The notes below the pieces were generated by a model. The model was not told the origin of the DNA and searched no databases. It saw nothing but the letters and a program-made list of their open reading frames with translations. 54,875 bases of DNA from positions 1-54,875 of the forward strand of contig JAMOVK010000032.1 in assembly GCA_027067775.1 (NCBI GenBank). Reading direction: 5' to 3'. Origin of the DNA: Deltaproteobacteria bacterium (lineage in GTDB: Bacteria; Desulfobacterota; Dissulfuribacteria; Dissulfuribacterales; QOAL01). Shown piece after piece: positions 19,363-32,778 of this stretch. The translations under genes and the position numbers were made by a program. Positions within the stretch are counted from its first letter, which is position 1. Every line of letters starts with the position of its first letter.

Positions 19363-20436
19363 ATGAAAAAATTCAATCTCAAAGAACTATTTAAGAAGAA
19401 ACCACAGTCCACCCTCGGAGTTGATCTTGGTTCTCATACCATAAAAGTGGTGGAACTAACAGGAAACGGAGGTCAAAGACGAGTTAAAAAGGTTGGACGG
19501 GCCCTTCTGCCGCAGGGCGCCATTGTAGATGGTTCCATAAAAGAACATGATGTGGTTCTGGAAGTGCTTGAACATCTGTTGTCTAACCTTCAACCGTCCC
19601 TAAAGAGGGCCTCTACTTCCATTTCAGGCTATTCAGTCATTGTAAAAAGGATACATGTCCCATATATGACAGAAAAGGAGATGGAAGAAAATCTTATTAT
19701 TGAGGCTGAAAAGTATGTTCCTTTTGAAATTTCAGATGTCTATATAGATTTCAGTGTCCTTAAGACATATCCAGAAGAGAACGGTGGAAGCGACATATTC
19801 CTGGTGGCAGCCAAAAAGGAGATTGTTGATGAGTATGCCAATCTTCTCGAGGGGGTTGGCCTGACCCCGGCTGTCATTGATGTTGATGCCTTTACCCTGG
19901 TCAATGCCTTTGAACTAGCATTTGGCGAGGTGGAAGAACCTGCAGTTCTCATAGACATTGGGGCAAGCAAGACCAATCTGAACATTGTCAAGAAGGGCAT
20001 GCCCATTTTTACCAGGGATATGAACATAGGGGGGGAACAGCTTACCGAGGCGATTCAGGAAGCAACAGGCCTTAACAGAGAAGATGCAGAAACAGTAAAG
20101 ATAAGCGGAACCAAAGACAAAGTCCTGGCAAGAGAAATTACCGGTGTTGTGCAAGAGATTTCAGAACTATGGGGTAAGGAAATAAAAAAGGCCATAAGTT
20201 TTTTCAAGTCAAGCGCATCGCCGGAAGAATTTCCAACCTGTGTTTTTATAAGCGGTGGCACGTCCATGTTAAAGGGCCTTGAAGACTATTTTTCAGATGC
20301 TTTAGGCCTTGAAACACGGAGACTGAATGCATTTGCAGGCCAAGAGCCTGACAGGGATATAGACGAGAAATATCTGCAAAGCATATCCCCACAAATGGCA
20401 ATTGCCAGCGGATTGGCCATAAGGAGTGCAGGATAG
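19363..20436 (+). CDS. pilM: Type IV pilus assembly ATPase-fold protein PilM
   Basis: 357 residues of the actin/FtsA fold. The phosphate-1 motif is TLGVDLGSHTIKVVEL (about 17-32), phosphate-2 is AVLIDIGASKTNLNIV, and the adenosine motif is CVFISGGTSMLKGLEDYF. PilM is cytoplasmic and binds the N-terminal INLLP motif of PilN to build the inner-membrane alignment complex. Weak RBS (AAAGAGAC) before ATG 19363. It starts a tight operon pilM-N-O-P-(STN/TPR)-secretin that lacks the pilin and motor genes, which must be elsewhere. Confidence 0.95.
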   Translation: MKKFNLKELFKKKPQSTLGVDLGSHTIKVVELTGNGGQRRVKKVGRALLPQGAIVDGSIKEHDVVLEVLEHLLSNLQPSLKRASTSISGYSVIVKRIHVPYMTEKEMEENLIIEAEKYVPFEISDVYIDFSVLKTYPEENGGSDIFLVAAKKEIVDEYANLLEGVGLTPAVIDVDAFTLVNAFELAFGEVEEPAVLIDIGASKTNLNIVKKGMPIFTRDMNIGGEQLTEAIQEATGLNREDAETVKISGTKDKVLAREITGVVQEISELWGKEIKKAISFFKSSASPEEFPTCVFISGGTSMLKGLEDYFSDALGLETRRLNAFAGQEPDRDIDEKYLQSISPQMAIASGLAIRSAG

Positions 20437-20978
20437 TGATATCTATAAATCTTTTACCAGTCAGGGAATGGAAGAAACGAGAGGCGGTCAGGAAACAAGT
20501 CTCCATATTCTTCCTATCTTTTATACTGTTGCTTGCCGGTCTGTTTGCCGTGGGTTTTGCCATCCAAGGCAAGGTTTCAGCACAGAGAAAGGAACTTAAA
20601 AGACTGGAAGCAAGAAAAGCCCAACTTGCCTACGTAGACAGAAAGATAACCCAGGCTAAAAGAAAGAGTAAAGAAATCGAGGCGAAGTTTCAGGCAATAG
20701 AGAAGTTGCAGCAGGGCAGAACCCGCACGGTAAGGGTGTTGGATGAGATTGTAACGTGTCTGCCTATAGACAGGCTGTGGCTAAAGGGGCTTGAACTAAA
20801 GGCCGGAAAGCTGAAGCTGTCAGGTATTGCATTGGACAATCACACCGTGGCCCTTTTCATGAGAAGGTTGGACGCCTCTCCGTTAACCAAAAAGGTAAGA
20901 CTGGTGAATACCAGGAGGCAGAAGATACAGGGACACGAACTGATGCAGTTTGATTTAATGGTCGATCTGGCCAGTTAA
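20436..20978 (+). CDS. pilN: Type IV pilus assembly protein PilN
   Basis: 180 residues, GTG start overlapping the last base of the pilM stop. The N-terminal MISINLLPVREWKKRE is the PilM-binding INLLP motif; one membrane helix follows (about residues 24-45), then a coiled coil (about 46-90) and a small ferredoxin-like domain containing LKLSGIALDNHTVALFMRRL. PilN with PilO forms the periplasmic scaffold between PilM and the secretin. Confidence 0.93.
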   Translation: MISINLLPVREWKKREAVRKQVSIFFLSFILLLAGLFAVGFAIQGKVSAQRKELKRLEARKAQLAYVDRKITQAKRKSKEIEAKFQAIEKLQQGRTRTVRVLDEIVTCLPIDRLWLKGLELKAGKLKLSGIALDNHTVALFMRRLDASPLTKKVRLVNTRRQKIQGHELMQFDLMVDLAS

Positions 20979-21008
20979 TTAAAAGGATATGAGATACAGG
21001 TTGATGCT

Positions 21009-21776
21009 ATGTCCTTAAAAGACAAATTCAAGATAAAGATCCCAGCAACCCTCTTTGATACGGTCTACAGTATGCCTATCTGGCAAAAAGCCTTGATATT
21101 CATGATTTCTTGGCTGCTGCCCATCGGACTTTTTTGGTATCTGTTTCTGTCTGCCAGAATAGGTGAAATTGATTCCATCTCAACCAAGATTCCTAAACTC
21201 AGGCAGGAGATTGCCATACTTGAACAAAAGAGCAAGCAGATACCAAAGCTGGAAAAGGAACTGAAGGAGATGGAGGGAATACTAAAGCAGGCAATGAAAC
21301 TTCTTCCAGAAAAAGAAGACATTCCCTCAGTTCTCACTGAAATATCTTCTTTAGGCAATGAGGCACGGCTGGAGTTTCAGGCCTTTAAACCGGGTAACGA
21401 GCGGATAAACAATTTTTATGCGGCAATTCCGGTTTCTCTGGAGCTTGAGGGCCCATTTCACAACACGGTGGTATTTTTCGATAGGATTAGCAGGATGGCT
21501 CGAATTGTACATATAGAGGATGTGACCATGGGAAGGGCAAAAGAGAGTTCCCAGATATGGAGTCAGGCAGTGAACAAAGAAAATGGATCCACAAAGACTT
21601 CATCAGCCAAGGCTTCCCAGGCAAATTCAAAATCAACAGGCATGGACAGTAAAGGAGTTGTCCAGCGTGGTAGCAATTGGGTGATTCACACGAAATGTAC
21701 AGCAGTTACCTACAGATTTTTAACGCCCGAAGAACAAAAGAGGGCCAAAGCGAAAGGCAAGAAGAAAAGAAGATAA
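21009..21776 (+). CDS. pilO: Type IV pilus assembly protein PilO
   Basis: 255 residues. A membrane helix (about 26-47, FMISWLLPIGLFWYLFLSAR) is followed by a coiled coil (IPKLRQEIAILEQKSKQIP) and a C-terminal domain with ISSLGNEARLEFQAFKPG and VSLELEGPFHNTVVFFDRIS, typical PilO elements. After about residue 185 there is a low-complexity Ser/Lys/Ala-rich insert (KENGSTKTSSAKASQANSKS) before the last strand, and a strongly basic tail. It pairs with PilN in the periplasm. Confidence 0.92.
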   Translation: MSLKDKFKIKIPATLFDTVYSMPIWQKALIFMISWLLPIGLFWYLFLSARIGEIDSISTKIPKLRQEIAILEQKSKQIPKLEKELKEMEGILKQAMKLLPEKEDIPSVLTEISSLGNEARLEFQAFKPGNERINNFYAAIPVSLELEGPFHNTVVFFDRISRMARIVHIEDVTMGRAKESSQIWSQAVNKENGSTKTSSAKASQANSKSTGMDSKGVVQRGSNWVIHTKCTAVTYRFLTPEEQKRAKAKGKKKRR

Positions 21777-21820
21777 TCATGGGCACCATTTGGTACAGAA
21801 TCAAAGGTGGGAGTTGGCAA

Positions 21821-22387
21821 ATGTATAAGATTTCTTTGCCCCTAATTTTTTCGATTTTCCTGTTATCTGGTCCAATGACCATGTCTTCGTTAGCTACCAA
21901 AGACGTAAAACAGGACAACAACAAAGCCAGCAAAAATATCTCTGAGAAAATTGCACAGTACAAAAAGAGATTGGAAAGACTGTTGTCACCTGTGGATTAC
22001 CATTATGTGGCAGCAGGAAAACCTGATCCATTTAAGCCTTTTTTCAGGACCGAGATGAAAAAAGGTGTTCGGGCAAACTCTAAAACTGTGAAAAAAAGGC
22101 CTGAAAGTTGTGATGCACCGCTTGAATGCATGGATGTGGGTCAGCTTACCCTGGTCGGCATAGTACTGCAGTCAGATGGAAATGCTTTAGCCATGGCACA
22201 GGATGCCTCTGGCATTGGCTATACGCTAAGAGTTGGAACAAGAATAGGTTACAACAATGGCAAGGTGGTATCCATTGCCAGGGACAGGGTTGTTGTAAGG
22301 GAAAAGGTAGAAGACCTTAGAGGGAAGCCTACTTTTAGGGATAGAACATTATATCTCCATCCGGAGGAAGGTGATGAATCTAGTTAA
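21821..22387 (+). CDS. pilP: Pilus assembly protein PilP-like
   Basis: 188 residues from the ATG at 21821 (GGTGGGAG seven bases upstream); an in-frame ATG at 21779 just after pilO is the alternative. A hydrophobic N-terminus (MYKISLPLIFSIFLLSG) resembles a signal peptide, but without the lipobox Cys that classical PilP lipoproteins carry. Then come GKPDPFKPFF and the beta domain LECMDVGQLTLVGIVLQ... DASGIGYTLRVGTRIGYNNGKV, which match PilP. PilP links PilN/PilO to the secretin. It overlaps the following gene by 14 bases. Confidence 0.88.
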   Translation: MYKISLPLIFSIFLLSGPMTMSSLATKDVKQDNNKASKNISEKIAQYKKRLERLLSPVDYHYVAAGKPDPFKPFFRTEMKKGVRANSKTVKKRPESCDAPLECMDVGQLTLVGIVLQSDGNALAMAQDASGIGYTLRVGTRIGYNNGKVVSIARDRVVVREKVEDLRGKPTFRDRTLYLHPEEGDESS

Positions 22388-23612
22388 AAAGAGAAAAACA
22401 GTTTTTTGGCCAACCATCGTCTTTATTTTTATGGTGGGGCTTCAGGTGGCATATACACCTGTGGGGGTTATAGATGTTTGGGCATCAAAAGAAAAGTCCG
22501 ATGTTGACTACTGGCTAAAGGAACTCAAAAATAGACAGCCCCAAAAGAATCTAAAGGTTGCCTCTGTAAAAAGAGGAGCACAGTTGATAGCTGCCAGCGA
22601 TGCTCCCAAGACAAAAATAGTTGCCAAAAGAAACGACGGTAACCTTACCGGACCAAAGAAGATAAGCGTGGATTTTTACAAGGTGGATCTACACAATGTC
22701 TTTAGGCTTCTTGGACAGGTAAGTGGAAAAAATGTTGTGGTTGATGAGGGAGTAAAAGGCACGCTCACCCTTGCCTTGGATAATGTACCTTGGACCTTTG
22801 TTCTGGAAGTGATTAAAAATCTTAAGGGGTTAGAGAGCATAGAAAAAAACAATACCATAATGATCTATCCAAAGAAAAAGTCCATCGAATGGGCTGGAGA
22901 GACAGGGGGATCCGGAACCCTGGAGACGGTTGCCGGCACCATGGAGATAACCAGAAAGGCCAGGGCTGCCAAACGCCTTAATGTGGAAAACAAATACAAG
23001 TCTTCCACTCCTCTTAAACAGATACTAAAGGCTGAAAAGCTTATTAAAAAGGCCGCTGCCCAGGAAAAAAGGGGCAATATTTTTGGAGCATATGAATCTC
23101 TTAAAAAGGCCGCTGAACTCTGGCCAGATAACCTCAAGCTTCTTGATAAGCTTGCTGCCTTGGCACTTCAAAGAAACGATAATCTCGCTGCCTTCAACTA
23201 TGCCAAAAGGGCACTAAAACTGGACAATAAGGATGCTGAAGCAGCGGCTATAGCAGCAGTTGCCCTTGCCAGAATGGATAGGCCAGAGGATGCAAAAGAG
23301 TATTTCGAGCTTGCCATGAGCATCAAGCCTACCAAAGACACTTTGTGGAACTATGCAGTATTTTCGTTTTCACAAGGAAATTACAGGCAGGCGCTTAGGC
23401 TCATTAACAGGATCGAGGCAAATTACAATATCACACCGGATATGCTTATGCTAAAGGCGCAGTGTTATGAATACCTCTCAAGAATTCCACAGGCAGTTGC
23501 AGAATACAGAGCGCTCTTGTCATCAGGCAGCAACGTGCCAAAAGAGATGGAAAAATTCGCAAAATTGAGGCTAAGCGCACTAACTGGCACATCTTCTGGA
23601 TCTAATAAATAA
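22374..23612 (+). CDS. STN/secretin-N-like and TPR protein inside the pilus operon
   Basis: 412 residues from ATG 22374 (GTG at 22371 is in frame; GGAGGAAG lies just upstream). An N-terminal hydrophobic segment (VFWPTIVFIFMVGLQVAY) is followed by an STN-like domain at about 95-155 (KISVDFYKVDLHNVFRLLGQ and GTLTLALDNVPWTFVLEVIK), as found at the start of secretins, then a helical TPR region (about 215-400: AAELWPDNLKLLDKLAALAL, ALKLDNKDAEAAAIAAVALA, MSIKPTKDTLWNYAVFSFSQ). Family knowledge: separate TPR pilotins (PilF/Tgl) assist secretin assembly. A protein carrying both a secretin-type domain and TPRs, directly before the secretin gene, may be a dedicated secretin assembly factor (inference); MshN of MSHA operons is the nearest analogue by position. 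Confidence 0.75.
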   Translation: MNLVKKRKTVFWPTIVFIFMVGLQVAYTPVGVIDVWASKEKSDVDYWLKELKNRQPQKNLKVASVKRGAQLIAASDAPKTKIVAKRNDGNLTGPKKISVDFYKVDLHNVFRLLGQVSGKNVVVDEGVKGTLTLALDNVPWTFVLEVIKNLKGLESIEKNNTIMIYPKKKSIEWAGETGGSGTLETVAGTMEITRKARAAKRLNVENKYKSSTPLKQILKAEKLIKKAAAQEKRGNIFGAYESLKKAAELWPDNLKLLDKLAALALQRNDNLAAFNYAKRALKLDNKDAEAAAIAAVALARMDRPEDAKEYFELAMSIKPTKDTLWNYAVFSFSQGNYRQALRLINRIEANYNITPDMLMLKAQCYEYLSRIPQAVAEYRALLSSGSNVPKEMEKFAKLRLSALTGTSSGSNK

Positions 23613-23625
23613 AGGAGGTCTTAAA

Positions 23626-25428
23626 ATGCCCGCTCCTATCAAAAAAATACATACAGCCAGATTTCGTATGTACATTGTCCTTGTGGCTTTAATCTTATTT
23701 GGTGGTGGTTGTGCTCAACACAATTTAAACAATCCTGTCCAACCACCGGAAAAGACCAAGCCCTCGGTAAAGTCTCAACAGGTAAACAAATCTGTAAAGG
23801 CCCAATCAGAGCCGATTCCCCTTAGGCCTTCAAATTTCAAGCCTGAAATCCGCTGGAAACCTTCTTACAGTTTGTCAGAGGTTCATATAAATACGAAAGA
23901 TGCCAAGCTGCCGGAGATGCTGGTAGGGGCTAACATAAATTCGAAAAACGGACGGGTACCTCTCCACGAGGTTATAAAATCCTTAGCCGATTTGAAGGGA
24001 ATGAATGTCAGCTGGTCAAGCGATGTGGATCAGGATGCGTTGGTAAATGTAAATATCAAGGCAAATGCCAACTTTTGGGATGCTCTGAGTGATGTGTTAA
24101 GACAGGTAGACTATTTCTACGAGTTCAAAAATCGTACAATAGTGGTGAAATACAAGGATACGAAACGTTTTCATATCACTTGTCCGTTTCTTACTGGCAG
24201 TTATCGTACCTCAGTAGGGGGCGACTTTTTGGGAAATGCTGGAGAGATAGACACTGGCCTTCGGGGGGAGCTGGGAGTTGAGCACACCGATGAAGATATA
24301 GATATCTGGAAGACTATAGAAGAGAACCTGGGCAGGATCCTTGACCTTGCAACGCTAAATGTACCTGAACGTACTGGAGAATCTCTCGATCAGGCCAGAA
24401 TAGAGGCACTTTGTCGCACAAGGTACCCTAACAACCCTGCTCAACAGGCCCTTTGTGTAAGGCAAGAACAGGCAAGGGTGGAGCTTGAAGGATCAAACGC
24501 CAATAACCAGCAAAGCGATGGGCGTCAGGTGATCCAGGGAACAGGTGAAGGGACAAGAAAAGGCTTCTATTTCACCATTGACAAGCCTCTTGGAATTGTA
24601 ACTGTAACAGCGCCTCGTTCTATTTTGGAAAAAGTAGAAGATTATCTTGATCACCTGCACGAGATGCTTTCAAAGCAGGTAGTAATAGAGGCAAAGATTA
24701 TAGAAGTTGATTTGGACGATTCCAATACAAAAGGTGTTGATTGGAGTGGCCTTCTCAAAGACTCTGCCTTTAATTTTCACATGACATTTGGAAAGAATGG
24801 CCAGATCTATCCCACCGATGGAATCAAGTTTCTTGAAAGCGTGACCATGACAAGAGAACCTTTTGATTTGGTGCTCAACTTTCTTGATGAATTTGGGAAT
24901 GTAAAGGTGCTATCAAACCCCAAACTTTCTTTGTTAAATGGACAGCCGGCTATGATAACCGGTGGTAAAACCACCCGGTACATAGATCGTGTAACAACTG
25001 TAGTAAATGATACAGGAAATGGCGCAACGACTTCCTACACCATAGAGACCAGGGACATTTTATCGGGAATCGGGCTTGGAGTTATAGCAAACATCGAGTC
25101 CGATGATGAAATAGTCCTTCAGCTTACTCCTGTAAACAGTCGTCTGGCAAAGATCACTCCTCGCCAGTTTGGCTCTTTTCTTACTGGATATGCAGAAGTT
25201 GATCTGCCTGAGGTAAACCTCAGGGAAATGACCACAATGGCCAGGGTAAAAAGTGGCCATCTTCTGGTTATTGGCGGCATTATCGACGACATGGAAGGTG
25301 TTGAAGGAAACAAGGTTCCCTTTCTTGGAGATTTACCCCTTGTTGGCTGGGCATTTAAAAGCGAACGGAAGTTTAAGAAAAAGAGGGAGCTTGTTATTCT
25401 GTTAAGACCACAGATAGTAGATATATAG
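23626..25428 (+). CDS. pilQ: Outer-membrane secretin, PilQ/MshL family
   Basis: 600 residues after AAAGGAGGT. Lipoprotein signal with lipobox FGGGC (Cys29). The N-terminal part has an STN/N1-type domain (VPLHEVIKSLADLKGMNVSW... FWDALSDVLRQVDYFYEF); FLTGSYRTSVGGDFLGN resembles the MshL-specific segment. The secretin core runs from about 345 to 600: VVIEAKIIEVDLDDSNTKGV, VKVLSNPKLSLLNGQPAMI, VDLPEVNLREMTTMARVKSG and NKVPFLGDLPLVGWAFKSER. It forms the outer-membrane pore through which the pilus leaves the cell. Being a lipoprotein, it may reach the outer membrane by the Lol route. Terminator at 25462-25488 follows. Confidence 0.93.
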   Translation: MPAPIKKIHTARFRMYIVLVALILFGGGCAQHNLNNPVQPPEKTKPSVKSQQVNKSVKAQSEPIPLRPSNFKPEIRWKPSYSLSEVHINTKDAKLPEMLVGANINSKNGRVPLHEVIKSLADLKGMNVSWSSDVDQDALVNVNIKANANFWDALSDVLRQVDYFYEFKNRTIVVKYKDTKRFHITCPFLTGSYRTSVGGDFLGNAGEIDTGLRGELGVEHTDEDIDIWKTIEENLGRILDLATLNVPERTGESLDQARIEALCRTRYPNNPAQQALCVRQEQARVELEGSNANNQQSDGRQVIQGTGEGTRKGFYFTIDKPLGIVTVTAPRSILEKVEDYLDHLHEMLSKQVVIEAKIIEVDLDDSNTKGVDWSGLLKDSAFNFHMTFGKNGQIYPTDGIKFLESVTMTREPFDLVLNFLDEFGNVKVLSNPKLSLLNGQPAMITGGKTTRYIDRVTTVVNDTGNGATTSYTIETRDILSGIGLGVIANIESDDEIVLQLTPVNSRLAKITPRQFGSFLTGYAEVDLPEVNLREMTTMARVKSGHLLVIGGIIDDMEGVEGNKVPFLGDLPLVGWAFKSERKFKKKRELVILLRPQIVDI

Positions 25429-25461
25429 AATCCAGTTTATTTAACCATCAGGTGCATGCAG

Positions 25462-25488
25462 GGGCCGCTTAAGCGGCCCTTTTCTTTT
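25462..25488 (+). terminator. Rho-independent terminator of the pilus operon
   Basis: GGGCCGCTT (25462-25470) and AAGCGGCCC (25471-25479) form a G+C-rich stem with a TTAA loop, followed directly by TTTTCTTTT. Confidence 0.9.
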
Positions 25489-25578: not shown

Positions 25579-28062
25579 ATGCCTTTCACACTCTTTAAGT
25601 ACTGGACTTATCAATTTTTCGCCCCAGGGACGCTGGCAAAGAAAAAGTACGAGGCTTTTAAGCAAATCCTCGTTGCAGATAGGCAGGCCCATATACATCT
25701 GGCAGAGCTTGAAGAAATATATTACGGGGACAAAGAGGTCGACTGTTTCCGTATTGTCAATATATATGAAAATCTTTCTGCAGAAGTCAAAAAGATGGTC
25801 AAGGGATTAATGGAGCTGGCTCCATTCAGATATGCAAGTCTAAAAGATTATTTCAAAAAGATAGATTTTTACTGCAGGCTTGTGTTGGAACCAAAATATT
25901 ACAGCATCTCTCCTCCTTTTATTCTTGATCCGGACTCTGATGCAGATGTTTCCGAAATCCTATTAGGGGGAAAAGGGTATAATCTTTTCAGATTGACCAA
26001 AGAGCTGAATCTGCCAGTACCTCATTTTTTTGTAATAACAACCCATGCCTTTTTCTATTTTTTGGAGTGTATTGACGGCATTTCGCTGTTAAAACAGGAA
26101 CTTTCCAGAATATCCATATCCGATCCGAAAAAGCTGGAAGCCGGTTCCCAAAGGATTTTGTCGCACCTCAGGAACACAGAGATACCAACTTTCTTACGAG
26201 CAGAAATTGAAAAGGCCCTGGAAAAAAGATTTAGTAATGTGTCCAGGAAAAAGTTTTCTGTCAGATCCAGTGCGGTTGCCGAAGACAGTAGCAGCTCATT
26301 TGCAGGGCAATATTTATCTGTCATAGGGGTTCCAGGATCTGAAGTGGTTGCATCATATAAAAGGGTGCTGGAAAGCAAATATACATCCAATGCCATATTT
26401 TATCGTATCAAAAATGGGTATTGCGATCTGGAAACTCCCATGGCTGTGATTGTACAGGAAATGATAGAACCCTTATGTGCCGGTGTAGCTTATTCTCAAG
26501 ACCCTGGGTTAGATAAAGGAGGAACCATACTAATATTTGCAAGCCATGGTCTGGGCGAGAACGTGGTTTCAGGAAAGACAAGGCCGGAAGAAATAAGGAT
26601 AGACAGAGGGAAGATGACAGTAGAGTCAGATTCAGGGATGGCCAGATGCCCCTTTTTAAACAATCATATATTACTCAGGCTGGCTTCTTGGCTTATGGAT
26701 ATAGAGAAACTGCTTGGCTGCCCAATTGACATGGAATGGTGTCTTGCTCAGGATGAGCAGCCCAGGATCCTTCAGGCCAGACCATTAGGGCTTAAAAGCA
26801 ATCCAGAAACTCAATCTCTGGTTAAAAAGATCAATATAACAGACAAACCCATTATGTCCGGAGGACAGAGTGCATCAGGGGGATGTGCCTCCGGTCGGAT
26901 ACACAAGGTGACAAGTAGATCCGAGCTTATCTCAATACAAAAAGGGGCAATTCTTCTTTCAAGGACTGCTCCGCCAGATTATGTAATGGTATTTGATAGG
27001 ATCAAGGCCATGATCAGTGAGGAGGGAAGCCCGGCTAGCCACTGCGCCTCGGTAGCAAGAGAGATGGGAATACCCTATATATGTGGACTTAAGGGAGCTA
27101 TGGAAGGCCTAAAACATGGTCAAATAGTGACAGTAGATGCAGACAGATGTGCAATTTTTCCAGGTGTATTAGAGGAATGCGCATCATATAAAAACAAGGC
27201 CCGAACTGAAGCAAAACAAAAACCAGTTTTTTCCATGCTCAAGCAGCTCATGGAACTTGCTTGCAAGTTAAACCTTGTTGACCCAAATTCAAAAGATTTT
27301 AGGCCGGAAGGGTGCAGATCCATTCATGACATAATACGCTTTGTCCATGAAACATCTATGCGGGAGATGTTTTCCATTGGTGACCAAGCTGGTTTTGGAG
27401 GAAAAGGTGTAAAAAAACTCAGAGATAGTCTTCCTCTTCTTTTTTATGTTTTAGATGTAGGCGGAGGGCTCAAGGACGAAGCTGGTGATGTGGAAGAAAT
27501 AACCATAGGGCATGTGGCCTCTATCCCTATGAAGGCTTTTTGGAAAGGTCTATCAGATCCATCCATTAAGTGGTCTGAGACGCATCACTTTGCATGGGAA
27601 GACTATGACAAGATAGTTTTGGCCGGAGGAATTGTAAGTGTGGATTCTGCACAACTGTCCAGTTATGCCATACTGGCAAGCGATTATATGAACCTCAATA
27701 TTCGTTTTGGCTATCATTTTGTACAAATAGATGCCCTATGTACCCAGGACAGGGATACCAATTATATCAAATTTAGATTCTCTGGCGGTGGAGGTACTAC
27801 CGAAGGCAAGTTTCTGAGGACACAGTTTTTGCTATATGTCTTGAGAAAACTGGGTTTTGAGGCAGACAATACCGGAGAACTAGTAGATGGAAAGATCAGC
27901 CAGATATCATGCGATCGTTCCCAGGAGATACTTGTTCAGCTAGGCCGCTTAGTAGGAATCACAAAGCTCATGGACATTCATCTCAAACCTGATACTGATG
28001 TGACATCACTGGCTGAGGATTTCTTGCAGGGAAGATCAGATTTTTCAAGCAGTAGCAGATAG
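25579..28062 (+). CDS. PEP-synthase-like protein: PEP/pyruvate-binding and phosphohistidine domains with an unusual C-terminal domain
   Basis: 827 residues from the ATG at 25579 (GAAGG upstream; the frame extends to 25456 but that part overlaps the terminator). Domains: about 100 residues of unknown N-terminus; an ATP-grasp PPDK_N domain (about 115-405: GGKGYNLFRLTKEL, FSVRSSAVAEDSSSSFAGQY, PMAVIVQEMIEP, MEWCLAQDEQPRILQARPLG); a swivelling phosphohistidine domain (about 440-530) with His488 in SEEGSPASHCASVAREMGIP. Classical PEP synthases then carry a PEP-binding TIM barrel; here it is replaced by about 295 residues I do not recognise (VLDVGGGLKDEAGDVEEITI, FGYHFVQIDALCTQDRDTNY, KFRFSGGGGTTEGKFL). 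Phosphotransfer to His488 is likely, the final acceptor unknown. A phosphatase gene follows nine bases later. Confidence 0.85.
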   Translation: MPFTLFKYWTYQFFAPGTLAKKKYEAFKQILVADRQAHIHLAELEEIYYGDKEVDCFRIVNIYENLSAEVKKMVKGLMELAPFRYASLKDYFKKIDFYCRLVLEPKYYSISPPFILDPDSDADVSEILLGGKGYNLFRLTKELNLPVPHFFVITTHAFFYFLECIDGISLLKQELSRISISDPKKLEAGSQRILSHLRNTEIPTFLRAEIEKALEKRFSNVSRKKFSVRSSAVAEDSSSSFAGQYLSVIGVPGSEVVASYKRVLESKYTSNAIFYRIKNGYCDLETPMAVIVQEMIEPLCAGVAYSQDPGLDKGGTILIFASHGLGENVVSGKTRPEEIRIDRGKMTVESDSGMARCPFLNNHILLRLASWLMDIEKLLGCPIDMEWCLAQDEQPRILQARPLGLKSNPETQSLVKKINITDKPIMSGGQSASGGCASGRIHKVTSRSELISIQKGAILLSRTAPPDYVMVFDRIKAMISEEGSPASHCASVAREMGIPYICGLKGAMEGLKHGQIVTVDADRCAIFPGVLEECASYKNKARTEAKQKPVFSMLKQLMELACKLNLVDPNSKDFRPEGCRSIHDIIRFVHETSMREMFSIGDQAGFGGKGVKKLRDSLPLLFYVLDVGGGLKDEAGDVEEITIGHVASIPMKAFWKGLSDPSIKWSETHHFAWEDYDKIVLAGGIVSVDSAQLSSYAILASDYMNLNIRFGYHFVQIDALCTQDRDTNYIKFRFSGGGGTTEGKFLRTQFLLYVLRKLGFEADNTGELVDGKISQISCDRSQEILVQLGRLVGITKLMDIHLKPDTDVTSLAEDFLQGRSDFSSSSR

Positions 28063-28071
28063 AAAATTTCT

Positions 28072-29139
28072 ATGTCCCGTTACGAAATTACATGGATCAC
28101 TCCTAACCTGGCCGTGGGATACGCCCCTATGTCCTACGAGGATTTAGAGACCATTAAAAAGGCGGGTATTACTGCCATAGTCAATCTTTGCGGTGAATAT
28201 TGTGATCTGCATGAGATAGAAGAAAAGGCAGGGTTTGATGTCTATTATCTGCCCATTCCAGATGAACATGCTCCTGATATGGAAGCCATGGAAAAGGCCC
28301 TTGACTGGCTAGATGAGGCAATCTTTCTTGGAAAAAAGGTCTTGGTTCACTGTAAGCATGGCATTGGAAGGACAGGTACCTTTGTCACTGCTTATCTTAT
28401 AAGAAAAGGGTTGGGCTATAAAAAAGCCAGTGAAATGCTTAAAGGGACGAGGGCGGGCTCTAGCTCCTGGAGTCAGTGGAGACTTCTAAAGCAGTACGAT
28501 AAACAGGAAAAACCTCTTAGTATCCGTGAGCCAAATCTAGAAAACAGGGAAAGTGTAGACCTTTCGGTCTACTTCTCTAAATATGAAGAGATACTAGAGG
28601 TGGTAGATTCAATGGTGCCAAAAGACGCCTCGGTTTGTGGCAAGGATAACATTGACTGTTGTCACCAATACTTTGAGTTGTCTTTTCTGGAAAGTCTTTA
28701 TATCCATTCCTGGATAAATAGGGTGCTGAAGCTCGACGAACGTCATAAACTTGTGGAAAAGGCCAACCAACAATTTAAAAAGGAAAAGGAGCTTAAAACG
28801 GCCTTTACTATCGGTAACAACTTTGAAACTAACCAGGAATTTCAAAATGCTTATAAAGACCAAGGACTGGAATGTTCCCTTTTGATAAAGGATAAATGCA
28901 TTATTTTTCCAAAGAGACCGGTTAGGTGCAGAACCTTTGGTATGGATATTGACAGGGATAAACTGTCATCCATTGAAAATCTAATTATCGAGATCTCAAG
29001 AATGCTTTTTTTTGCTTTGTCTGGAAAGTTCCTTCAAGAGAATAGATTGAGGTTTTCAATGGCCGAGGTGGTTTCGGGACGTTTCATGGAGAGTTATTTC
29101 AGATATGCTGCGACTAAATCTGGCGATCTTCCTATATAA
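28072..29139 (+). CDS. Dual-specificity phosphatase fused to a YkgJ-like cysteine-cluster domain
   Basis: 355 residues. Residues 1-145 are a cysteine phosphatase (DSP/PTP) domain: the P-loop HCKHGIGRTGT has catalytic Cys94 and Arg100, and Asp64 in LPIPDEHAPD is the likely general acid. Residues 160-355 hold cysteines at 189, 196-197 (CGKDNIDCC), 268, 276 and 286 (RPVRCRTFGMD), the order seen in YkgJ-type Cys-cluster proteins, probably a Zn or Fe-S site. The fusion is unusual. It sits nine bases after the PEP-synthase-like gene, which suggests coupled expression. A role in dephosphorylating or redox-tuning the partner protein is inference; classical PEP synthase is regulated by a different, DUF299-type enzyme. 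Confidence 0.82.
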   Translation: MSRYEITWITPNLAVGYAPMSYEDLETIKKAGITAIVNLCGEYCDLHEIEEKAGFDVYYLPIPDEHAPDMEAMEKALDWLDEAIFLGKKVLVHCKHGIGRTGTFVTAYLIRKGLGYKKASEMLKGTRAGSSSWSQWRLLKQYDKQEKPLSIREPNLENRESVDLSVYFSKYEEILEVVDSMVPKDASVCGKDNIDCCHQYFELSFLESLYIHSWINRVLKLDERHKLVEKANQQFKKEKELKTAFTIGNNFETNQEFQNAYKDQGLECSLLIKDKCIIFPKRPVRCRTFGMDIDRDKLSSIENLIIEISRMLFFALSGKFLQENRLRFSMAEVVSGRFMESYFRYAATKSGDLPI

Positions 29140-30088: not shown

Positions 30089-31903
30089 ATGAATAAGGAA
30101 CGAGAATCGCGTTTTGTAGTAGGAATCGATCTTGGAACCACCAATAGTGTGCTTTCGTTTATAGACCTGGAAAAAGATGAAAATGATCAGGACCAGATTG
30201 AGATTTTTGATGTCCCCCAGATAGAATCTCCTGGAGAGATTAGAGAGTACAGGCTTCTCCCTTCATTTATCTACTTGCCAACTGACAAGGAAAAGGAAGG
30301 CGGTGGGCTGGTCATGCCCTGGGACCCTTTTGGCGAGCGGGTTGTTGGAAAGTGGGCAAGAAAGAGGGGGGCTGAGGTCCCTGGCAGGCTGATTGCCTCT
30401 GCCAAGAGCTGGCTTTGTCATACCGGCGTTGACAGAACAGCGGCCATTCTTCCGTTAGATGCGGCAGAAGATGTCCAGAAACTGTCGCCAATCGTTGCCA
30501 CGGCAACCTTTTTACGCCATTTTAAGGCCGCCTGGAACCACAGGTTTGCTAAGGAGCCCGGGCTAAATCTTGAAGACCAACAGGTGTATGTGACTATACC
30601 AGCCTCATTCGATGCAGTTGCCCGAGACTTAACCGTTCAGGCAGCAGCCTCTGCGGGCCTTTCCAATATTACCCTTCTTGAGGAGCCCCAGGCGGCCTTT
30701 TATGCCTGGCTCCACAACATGGGACAGGACTGGAAAAAGCATGTTGAGCCAGGAGACATCATCCTTGTGGTAGACGTTGGTGGAGGTACCTCTGATTTTA
30801 GCCTTATTCAGGTCAGCAGCAAAGACAACGTGTTAATCCTTGAAAGGCTGGCAGTTGGAGAGCATCTCCTCCTCGGCGGGGATAACATGGATCTTACGCT
30901 TACCCATGTCCTGTTTGAACAGCTTAAAGAAAAAGGCCATAAACTGGATCAAGGACAATTCCAAAGCCTGTGGAACAACGTAAGGCTTGCAAAGGAAAAA
31001 CTTTTTGCCGACGGTTCACTGGATGAGGTACCAGTTGTGATACCAGGGCGCGGCTCTGGCCTTGTTGGTGGAACCATTAGAACCAGCCTTACAAGGGAAC
31101 TTGTAACAAAGGTAATCTTAGAGGGTTTCTTTCCTGAATGCCAGGTAACTGACATGCCTCATGAAAGAAAGAGACTAGGCCTGAGAGAGCTTGGTTTGCC
31201 CTACTGTTCCGATACTGGGATAACCCGTCATCTTGCCAAGTTTTTAACAGCCCAGGGTCAGGCACTGGAAATGAATGGTCCGGTTATACCTACTGCTGTG
31301 CTTTTTAATGGTGGAGTGTTCAAGGCCGAGGTGCTAAGGCAAAGGGTTATGTCCGTACTTACTGAGTGGGCTGGACAAGATAAAGAACCCAGGGAGCTTA
31401 TGGGTACGGATCTTGATCTTGCCGTTTCAAGGGGTGCTGCTCACTTTGGCCTTGTACAGCTTGGAGAAGGCATAAAAATACGGGGAGGAACCGGAAGATC
31501 CTATTATATAGCAGTGGAATCTACCGGACTTGCCATACCGGGAATGCCTCCTGTAATTAAAGCACTTTGTGTAGTTCCCAAGGGTCTGGAAGAAGGAACC
31601 GTAGTAGATATCCCGGAACAGGAGTTTGGCCTGGTTGTAGGTCAGGAAGTGGAGTTCCAATTTATGGGTTCCAGTATAAGGCCTGGAGATAAACCGGGAG
31701 ATCTTGTTTCTTCATGGCAAGATGATGAGATAGAACCTGTCAGCACATTGCGTACCAGGCTCGAGGCTCCAGGCGTTGAGCCAGGCACGGTTATACCAGT
31801 GACCCTACAGGCAGAGGTGACAGAAATAGGCACCCTGTCTCTTTCCCTTGTTTCAAAGGAAAGAGGGTTAAAATTTGATCTGGAGTTTGATGTAAGACAT
31901 TGA
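30089..31903 (+). CDS. Hsp70-family ATPase (DnaK-related, non-canonical)
   Basis: 604 residues. Actin-fold ATPase motifs: phosphate-1 FVVGIDLGTTNSVLSFI, phosphate-2 ILVVDVGGGTSDFSL, an EEPQAAFYAWL connect region and the adenosine-motif-like AVLFNGGVFKAEVL. The N-terminal domain carries large insertions, and the C-terminal part is a short beta-rich domain (GTVIPVTLQAEVTEIGTLSL) without the DnaK helical lid or EEVD-like tail. It belongs to the Hsp70 group found beside DUF2760 genes, not to housekeeping DnaK. No DnaJ or GrpE gene is near. It overlaps the HEAT-repeat gene by four bases. Confidence 0.93.
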   Translation: MNKERESRFVVGIDLGTTNSVLSFIDLEKDENDQDQIEIFDVPQIESPGEIREYRLLPSFIYLPTDKEKEGGGLVMPWDPFGERVVGKWARKRGAEVPGRLIASAKSWLCHTGVDRTAAILPLDAAEDVQKLSPIVATATFLRHFKAAWNHRFAKEPGLNLEDQQVYVTIPASFDAVARDLTVQAAASAGLSNITLLEEPQAAFYAWLHNMGQDWKKHVEPGDIILVVDVGGGTSDFSLIQVSSKDNVLILERLAVGEHLLLGGDNMDLTLTHVLFEQLKEKGHKLDQGQFQSLWNNVRLAKEKLFADGSLDEVPVVIPGRGSGLVGGTIRTSLTRELVTKVILEGFFPECQVTDMPHERKRLGLRELGLPYCSDTGITRHLAKFLTAQGQALEMNGPVIPTAVLFNGGVFKAEVLRQRVMSVLTEWAGQDKEPRELMGTDLDLAVSRGAAHFGLVQLGEGIKIRGGTGRSYYIAVESTGLAIPGMPPVIKALCVVPKGLEEGTVVDIPEQEFGLVVGQEVEFQFMGSSIRPGDKPGDLVSSWQDDEIEPVSTLRTRLEAPGVEPGTVIPVTLQAEVTEIGTLSLSLVSKERGLKFDLEFDVRH

Positions 31904-32778
31904 AAAAACCGGTGATACCCTTTGACCTTGCACAGAGGGTCATTAATCATGCAAAATGTTATATTGATAATCCTGGACTGATACTTAAAGAAAGACACAG
32001 GGCCATACCATTACTGCTAAAGGCCCTGAAGGCAGGAGATATTAGCCTTAGAAAACAGATTATCCTGCTGCTTGGAAGCGTAGCAAAGGAGGAAATTTAC
32101 TGGCCTCTTTACGAGATAATGAAGGATGAGAAAGAACCTGATGAACTCAGGGATCAGGCAGCAATCCATCTGGCCGTGATAGGCCCTTTTCTTGACGATC
32201 CACAGGCCCTGATACGCAAACTCATGAATGACATCTCTAGCCCTGATCGTGAAGTAAGAACCAGGGCCATAGTGGCTCTTGGATGGGAGGGTAATCTTTC
32301 TGCAGTGCTTCCACTTATAGAATGTATCTATCAGCCTGATCAAGAAATCCAGGAAGTTGCGGTAAACGCATTGTGCAATCTTAAAGACAGCAGGCTTATA
32401 GGGCTTCTCGCCGACCGGCTAAAGACCTGTTCTTTTGATCAGAAACGTGCGATTCTTTTTAATCTGTGGCGTTTTAAAGACAAGGAAGACGAAGTTGCAG
32501 CCATATATAAAAAGGAATTGGAAACAGGGGATCCGGCTCTCAAGCTGGATGTACTTATTCTTCTTGGACAACTTGATGTTCGGCCTGAAAATGAACAGGT
32601 GTACAGAGAATTGTTAAGGGATAGGAGTGCCAAAATCCGTGCCCTGGCCCTTGAACGTCTTGGGGAGCTGAATGTGCTTAGCCAGGAAGAAATCCTGGTC
32701 TTTTTGGATGATAACTCCATGGATGTCAAACGTGCTGCACTCGTTCTTCTTCAAAAGATAAGGGAGCAGTCATCCTGA
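31900..32778 (+). CDS. HEAT-repeat protein
   Basis: 292 residues from a TTG start that overlaps the Hsp70 stop (TTGA). Five to seven helical repeats are visible, for example GDISLRKQIILLLGSVAKEE, SSPDREVRTRAIVALGWEGN, QPDQEIQEVAVNALCNLKDS and DRSAKIRALALERLGELNVL, with the typical HEAT pattern of paired helices with Asp/Arg at the turn. HEAT solenoids bind other proteins; translational coupling to the Hsp70 gene suggests a cofactor or nucleotide-exchange/substrate adaptor for it (inference). Confidence 0.85.
   Translation: MKKPVIPFDLAQRVINHAKCYIDNPGLILKERHRAIPLLLKALKAGDISLRKQIILLLGSVAKEEIYWPLYEIMKDEKEPDELRDQAAIHLAVIGPFLDDPQALIRKLMNDISSPDREVRTRAIVALGWEGNLSAVLPLIECIYQPDQEIQEVAVNALCNLKDSRLIGLLADRLKTCSFDQKRAILFNLWRFKDKEDEVAAIYKKELETGDPALKLDVLILLGQLDVRPENEQVYRELLRDRSAKIRALALERLGELNVLSQEEILVFLDDNSMDVKRAALVLLQKIREQSS

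Follow-up and report, generated by a model that had tools for sequence, protein, structure and literature searches.

A barrel-less phosphoenolpyruvate-synthase-like protein and an adjacent cysteine phosphatase form a conserved two-gene module in sulfate reducers and their relatives

What does a phosphoenolpyruvate (PEP) synthase-like protein do when another domain stands in place of the PEP barrel, and why is its gene followed immediately by that of a phosphatase? These questions are raised by two genes in a 54,875-nucleotide stretch of Deltaproteobacteria bacterium DNA (contig JAMOVK010000032.1, assembly GCA_027067775.1), which belongs to a 2.4-Mb draft genome and is referred to below as the window. 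The first gene encodes P1 and the second encodes P2, with nine bases between the stop codon of the former and the start codon of the latter (Table 1). The original prediction, made from the letters of the window, described P1 as carrying an ATP-grasp domain and a phosphohistidine domain (His488) without the PEP barrel, P2 as a cysteine phosphatase fused to a Cys-cluster domain, and the two as a phosphotransfer/dephosphorylation module. The coordinates, lengths, and motifs of both proteins were confirmed, and the interpretation as a whole was partly supported. We found that P1 and P2 constitute a genuine two-gene module, and we tentatively suggest, at somewhat less than an even chance, that they are a phosphotransferase and a phosphatase that oppose each other in a regulatory switch.

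The front half of P1 is catalytically intact as judged by its residues. K132, R229, E386, Q399, R401, and H488 were identical in all 51 aligned P1 rows, and we take the ATP-binding and catalytic residues among them to be the counterparts of those in PPDK. P1 thus has the PPDK_N catalytic residues and the phosphohistidine swivel domain of a PEP synthase, and lacks the PF02896 barrel and the GGxT[SC]H motif with the regulatory Thr; on these features it is not a PEP synthase. DUF299 proteins modify this Thr in PEP synthases. It sits two places before the catalytic His (PMC12167813), where P1, with a motif of the form GSxAxH, carries Ala486, and Ala was present in 48/51 orthologue rows. A canonical PpsA with the GGRTCH motif is encoded separately in the genome (G000:C150), and the search for DUF299 (PF03618) gave no protein in this genome and no match in P2. 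These results agree with the earlier claim that the pair is independent of DUF299.

The C-terminal domain of P1 was compared with the PEP barrel in several ways. Pfam reported nothing in P1 past residue 523 and no significant family in any of 43 members of the C-terminal domain, and when we compared the profile of these 43 members with PEP barrels using hhalign, the probability was 0.2% for PpsA and 1.0% for enzyme I (EI), while the positive control, the PpsA barrel against the EI barrel, gave 99.2% (E 2.7e-19). A search of the whole genome with PF02896 matched PpsA and EI only. In the AlphaFold model of P1 (mean predicted local distance difference test (pLDDT) value of 82.9, with parts of residues 600-609 and 669-693 uncertain), the domain is predicted to consist of helices and a run of consecutive strands rather than eight alternating strands and helices. 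A PEP barrel was ruled out by the profile comparison, the PF02896 search, and the predicted topology. No convincing solved structure was found by a PDB profile search with the domain; two weak matches to viral papain-like proteases (E about 0.02, short overlap) were judged to be chance. Foldseek with the whole P1 model against PDB and BFVD returned ATP-grasp/His-type matches, the C-terminus not being reported separately. The residues His583, Asp584, His590, His713, Gly736, Gly737, Arg747, Gly789, and Asp799 are kept across paralogues, and in the 51-row orthologue set His583 was present in 49/51 and the other C-terminal residues counted in 51/51, a pattern reminiscent of an active site or a binding site. 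Mean identity to the window protein was 45% in the C-terminal domain, about as high as in the N-terminal region, and 37% in the ATP-grasp domain.

P2 has the HCX5R P-loop, the general-acid Asp, and the fold of a dual-specificity phosphatase (DSP). Pfam DSPc was matched at residues 26-144, with HC94xxGxGR100TG and Asp64, and D64, H93, C94, and R100 were identical in all 42 P2 rows. Since the catalytic residues are identical in all 51 P1 and 42 P2 rows, the motifs of the two proteins are not chance occurrences. In the AlphaFold model of P2 (mean pLDDT 87), the DSP half matched the structures of Tk-PTP and DUSPs with a template-modelling (TM) score of about 0.8 on the target. The second half of the window protein scored 16.6 bits against the CxxCxxCC/YkgJ family (PF03692), below the cut-off of 23, and the family was recognised in 12/42 orthologues (best E 3.7e-5). 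Among its Cys residues, C197, C268, C276, and C286 were retained in 42/42 rows, C189 in 41/42, and C196 in 36/42, and mean identity to the window protein over these rows was 73% in the DSP domain and 35% in the Cys domain. From these matches we classify P2 as a DSP whose second half is YkgJ-like, divergent, and not filed as a PF03692 member. FliB, with a CX4CX3CC motif similar to PF03692, contains a [4Fe-4S] cluster (PMC8598068), and by analogy the Cys domain of P2 probably forms a metal or Fe-S site, through which it could sense redox state.

The linkage of the two genes was surveyed in two sets that share some genomes. The C-terminal domain of P1 adjoins P2 by coordinates in 32/33 relative genomes with a full P2. 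A contig scan gave 80 loci, of which four start inside or just before P2, and P1 lies directly upstream of P2 on the same strand in 70 of the 76 informative ones; one locus (L160) was read by hand. The original prediction had named two outcomes that would speak against it, alignment of the C-terminal region with the barrel and genes that are never adjacent in relatives; the region did not align, and adjacency is the rule. The contig-scan loci are from Desulfobacterota (sulfate reducers and their relatives), except for one record under the label Nitrospirae and a few whose label goes no further than Pseudomonadota/Proteobacteria. The cultivated Desulfacinum hydrothermale has both genes, 3.5 kb apart. 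In the tree, the P2-linked P1 proteins form one clade together with a sister group that has a C-terminal extension, requiring 2 changes as against 15.5 in shuffles. In this sister group (L035, L036, L037, and L090), the extension comprises about 200 residues and looks jelly-roll-like (LamG/DUF1080-like) by eye only, and in G086 and G121 P2 is placed divergently next to such an extended P1.

The C-terminal domain is also the hallmark of a large family of paralogues with links to two-component genes, which the original prediction had missed. It is present in 86 of the 198 sampled genomes, with four copies in the present genome and up to 12 elsewhere, and the paralogues retain the catalytic His. 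Their neighbours encode histidine kinases, CheY-like receivers, sigma-54 activators, TauE transporters, and universal stress proteins (Usp). In the 80 contig-scan loci with P2 described above, the first three were found in 34, 33, and 31 loci, respectively. One distinct paralogue clade is consistently arranged tail-to-tail with a PPP-type metallophosphatase (G000:C48 (L071:5436-8777), L178, L179, L181, L183, and L188). This is a second, independent pairing within the family, and the phosphatases of the two branches are unrelated to each other. A literature search for the family by name, within openly licensed PMC papers, found nothing.

Two further kinds of protein recur near the pair. GAF-PAS proteins (L160:13382-15028 and homologues) have a terminal HisKA domain, in which the H-box is intact, and a conserved tail (DYVGxTKIVDL) but no HATPase_c, and such HisKA-only proteins lie near P1/P2 in 12 loci. 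They are possible phosphate acceptors that lack a kinase of their own. The strongest matches to the HisKA-only protein were mostly in P2-bearing genomes, but weaker kinase matches everywhere blur the pattern. In addition, a small His-rich membrane protein (HGxPEGLYVHQxAH), a possible haem or quinone sensor, is encoded directly before a membrane histidine kinase gene at L164:9758-11838 and recurs near P2.

In the window, the pair is preceded by a PilM/N/O/P/Q-like operon (19363-25428), which is probably incidental since it adjoins the pair only in close relatives. A hairpin between the PilQ-like gene and P1 is the most G-C-rich of five terminator-like sites found, although shuffled sequence gives about as many such sites overall; with this hairpin, the pair appears to be a unit of its own, separate from the pil genes. 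Downstream lie an Hsp70-like gene and then an apparent HEAT-repeat protein gene (30089-32778). A larger Hsp70-related gene (DUF3731) also occurs after a C48 paralogue and the CheY-like gene that goes with it. No sigma-54 promoter site was found before P1 in the window; sites upstream of P1 were found in 8/51 orthologues, compared with an expectation of 7.5% from shuffles, and most of these sites lay far upstream, some being near-copies. A role in anti-phage defence was dropped, with no PADLOC match.

Table 1. Positions of P1, P2, their domains and motifs, and related features (window coordinates unless a locus is named).
Feature	Position	Strand	Remarks
Intrinsic-terminator-like hairpin, 9 pairs, 7 G-C	25460..25481	+	3' of PilQ-like gene; terminator scan
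P1, PEP-synthase-like without PEP barrel, 827 aa	25579..28062	+	start Met agrees with orthologues
P1 all-helical N-terminal region, residues 1-112	25579..25914	+	AlphaFold secondary structure; retained in short forms
P1 ATP-grasp (PPDK_N), residues 128-412	25960..26814	+	Pfam E 5e-61; K132, R229, D236, E386, Q399, R401 invariant in 51 rows
P1 phosphohistidine swivel domain (PEP-utilizers), residues 453-523	26935..27147	+	Pfam E 3e-20
His488 codon, motif EGSPASHCASVARE	27040..27042	+	Ala486 at position of PEP synthases' regulatory Thr
P1 C-terminal domain, unclassified, residues 545-827	27211..28059	+	His583-Asp584, His590, His713, Asp718, Gly736-Gly737, Arg747 conserved
P2, DSP phosphatase fused to Cys-cluster domain, 355 aa	28072..29139	+	
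P2 dual-specificity phosphatase domain, residues 7-144	28090..28503	+	most conserved part of module
P2 catalytic P-loop, Cys94 to Arg100 (CKHGIGR)	28351..28371	+	
P2 Cys-cluster domain, residues 186-345	28627..29106	+	C189, C196, C197, C268, C276, C286
Natural short P1 forms, 393 aa	L164:6827-8005, L081:9307-10488		next to P2

How might the two proteins work together? In the proposed switch, P1 would act as a His-swivel dikinase, whose ATP-grasp domain would place the beta-phosphate of ATP on His488, yielding AMP and Pi. The swivel domain would then ferry the phosphate to the C-terminal domain, which takes the place of the PEP barrel and would hold the acceptor. P2, as a Cys-dependent DSP, would take the phosphate off the acceptor or off the N- and C-terminal part of P1, and its Cys domain may set the activity or docking of P2. 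The first half of this chemistry is well founded by analogy, as the swivel mechanism has been established for rifampin phosphotransferase (RPH) (PMC4844700) and HpeHI (PMC12167813), and the ATP/His step of P1 most probably resembles that of PEP synthase, RPH, and the split phenolic dikinases. Two-component genes surround the other members of the P1 family, and for this reason the switch most likely has a regulatory and not a catabolic role.

Several observations weigh against this proposal. P2 lies away from P1 in one of the 33 genomes (G031) and at six contig-scan loci (L135, L140, L147, L154, L157, and L159); at these six loci it is beside two-component genes, and at L159 a histidine kinase gene and a CheY-like gene intervene between P1 and P2. 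No two-component gene stands beside the pair in the window itself, where pil genes lie upstream and the Hsp70-like gene downstream. The Cys domain is the least conserved part, and its score in the window protein does not reach the Pfam cut-off. Finally, in G023 (a single contig) and G024, P1 is reduced to 393 residues, in which the helical N-terminal part is joined to the C-terminal domain without the ATP-grasp domain and His488, yet an orthologous P2 still adjoins; the P2 match of G023 carries one in-frame stop. Since these two genomes are sisters in the tree, the short forms probably reflect one loss, and both genomes have full-length P1-family paralogues, which could act in trans. The retention of P2 beside the short P1 makes it unlikely that the His488 phosphate is its only target, and P2 seems to follow the N- and C-terminal parts of P1 instead of the phosphohistidine.

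This bears directly on the model of the original prediction, in which P2 dephosphorylates His488 of P1 and the two proteins together make a complete autophosphorylation/dephosphorylation device. The immediate adjacency and co-distribution of the genes and the intact active sites of both proteins fit this model, whereas it is weakened by the short P1 forms and by the classical preference of DSPs and protein tyrosine phosphatases for phosphoserine, phosphothreonine, phosphotyrosine, or other phosphoesters over phosphoramidates, so that we regard it as improbable. The same short forms, which persist without the core, together with the higher conservation of the C-terminal domain than of the ATP-grasp domain, would suit an adjacency without joint function, or a P1 whose N- and C-terminal parts serve mainly as a scaffold, the dikinase core being secondary. 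Since the core residues are invariant in 51 rows, and it is difficult to see why the genes should be adjacent across many families and in very different surroundings if they did not work together, we consider this more improbable still.

A stronger competitor, unlikely as we judge it, is that P1 is a metabolic small-molecule dikinase of the phenylphosphate synthase, HpeHI, or RPH type, whose C-terminal domain would bind a phenol, an amine, an alcohol, or a sugar, and that P2 is a metabolite phosphatase preventing overshoot. The characterised barrel-less relatives use small molecules (PMC4844700, PMC12167813, PMC7500099), RPH is the closest fold match of P1, such enzymes are in use among sulfate reducers, and the invariant His, Asp, and Glu residues of the C-terminal domain are active-site-like. 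On the other hand, the conserved neighbours are signalling genes, no conserved catabolic enzymes lie beside the pair, and up to 12 paralogues per genome along with clade-specific phosphatases suggest dedicated partners. A further alternative is a dikinase with a glucan phosphatase that would act on a storage polysaccharide in the manner of plant glucan water dikinase and laforin/SEX4; it involves the same enzyme classes and would accommodate the jelly-roll-like extension of the sister-group P1 and a glycogen-phosphorylase-like gene beside one pair (L089). This extension was not identified by family search, though, neither of the two window proteins has a carbohydrate-binding domain, and the gene is a single isolated neighbour, glycogen genes not being conserved at the locus; of all these readings, the glucan pair is the one we would least expect. 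We retain the regulatory switch as the preferred, tentative reading.

If the switch is real, the pair would represent a counterpart to two-component signalling that is built on a dikinase, with the DSP/Cys fusion as a possible redox input. A wider generalisation, which we regard as doubtful, would be a new phosphosignalling class in sulfate reducers, in which barrel-less His-swivel dikinases phosphorylate regulatory proteins or their own C-terminal domain with the ATP beta-phosphate, are opposed by branch-specific phosphatases, Fe-S-gated in the present case, and are wired into two-component circuits. The pair is small and conserved, including in the cultivated D. hydrothermale, and is thus readily testable.

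When compared with known systems, P1 is structurally most similar to RPH (PDB 5HV1/5FBS; PMC4844700), which also combines an ATP-grasp domain and a His swivel without a PEP barrel. The order in RPH is ATP-grasp, rifampin-binding domain, and C-terminal His, whereas that in P1 is ATP-grasp, His, and the new domain, and P1 scored 170 against the NCBIfam RPH model with its cut-off of 999; by domain order and score, P1 is not an RPH. HpeHI, CreHI, and phenylphosphate synthase PpsAB (PMC12167813) and Pas of Desulfatiglans anilini (PMC7500099) likewise have a PEP-synthase-type ATP-grasp domain and His without the barrel. These phenolic dikinases are split over two proteins, have an RPH-like acceptor part, and lie in aromatic catabolism clusters, whereas P1, like its full-length orthologues, is a single chain, with a C-terminal domain matching none of the structures searched, and by this architecture it is not a split phenolic dikinase. 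PpsA shares the ATP-grasp and His domains with P1, which differs in its missing barrel, the Thr to Ala replacement, and the lack of a DUF299 partner. DUF299 (PSRP) proteins, regulators of PEP synthase and PPDK, are like P2 phosphatase-bearing partners of a dikinase, but are unrelated to it. The small DSPs Tk-PTP (5Z5A), VHZ/DUSP23 (4ERC), and ShufPTP (9E9L) have the same fold and signature as residues 7-144 of P2, but P2 differs from them in its fused Cys-cluster domain and tight linkage to P1. The YkgJ/FliB family (PF03692; PMC8598068) shares six conserved Cys residues and the RPxxCR motif with P2, in which the spacing is CX6CC instead of CX2CX2CC or CX4CX3CC and evidence of a methyltransferase is absent. 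What is known of swivel dikinases comes mainly from metabolism and antibiotic resistance, and the papers on them call the group largely unexplored; the P1 family is a large branch of it, with a domain in no searched library, signalling neighbourhoods, and phosphatases that follow its branches.

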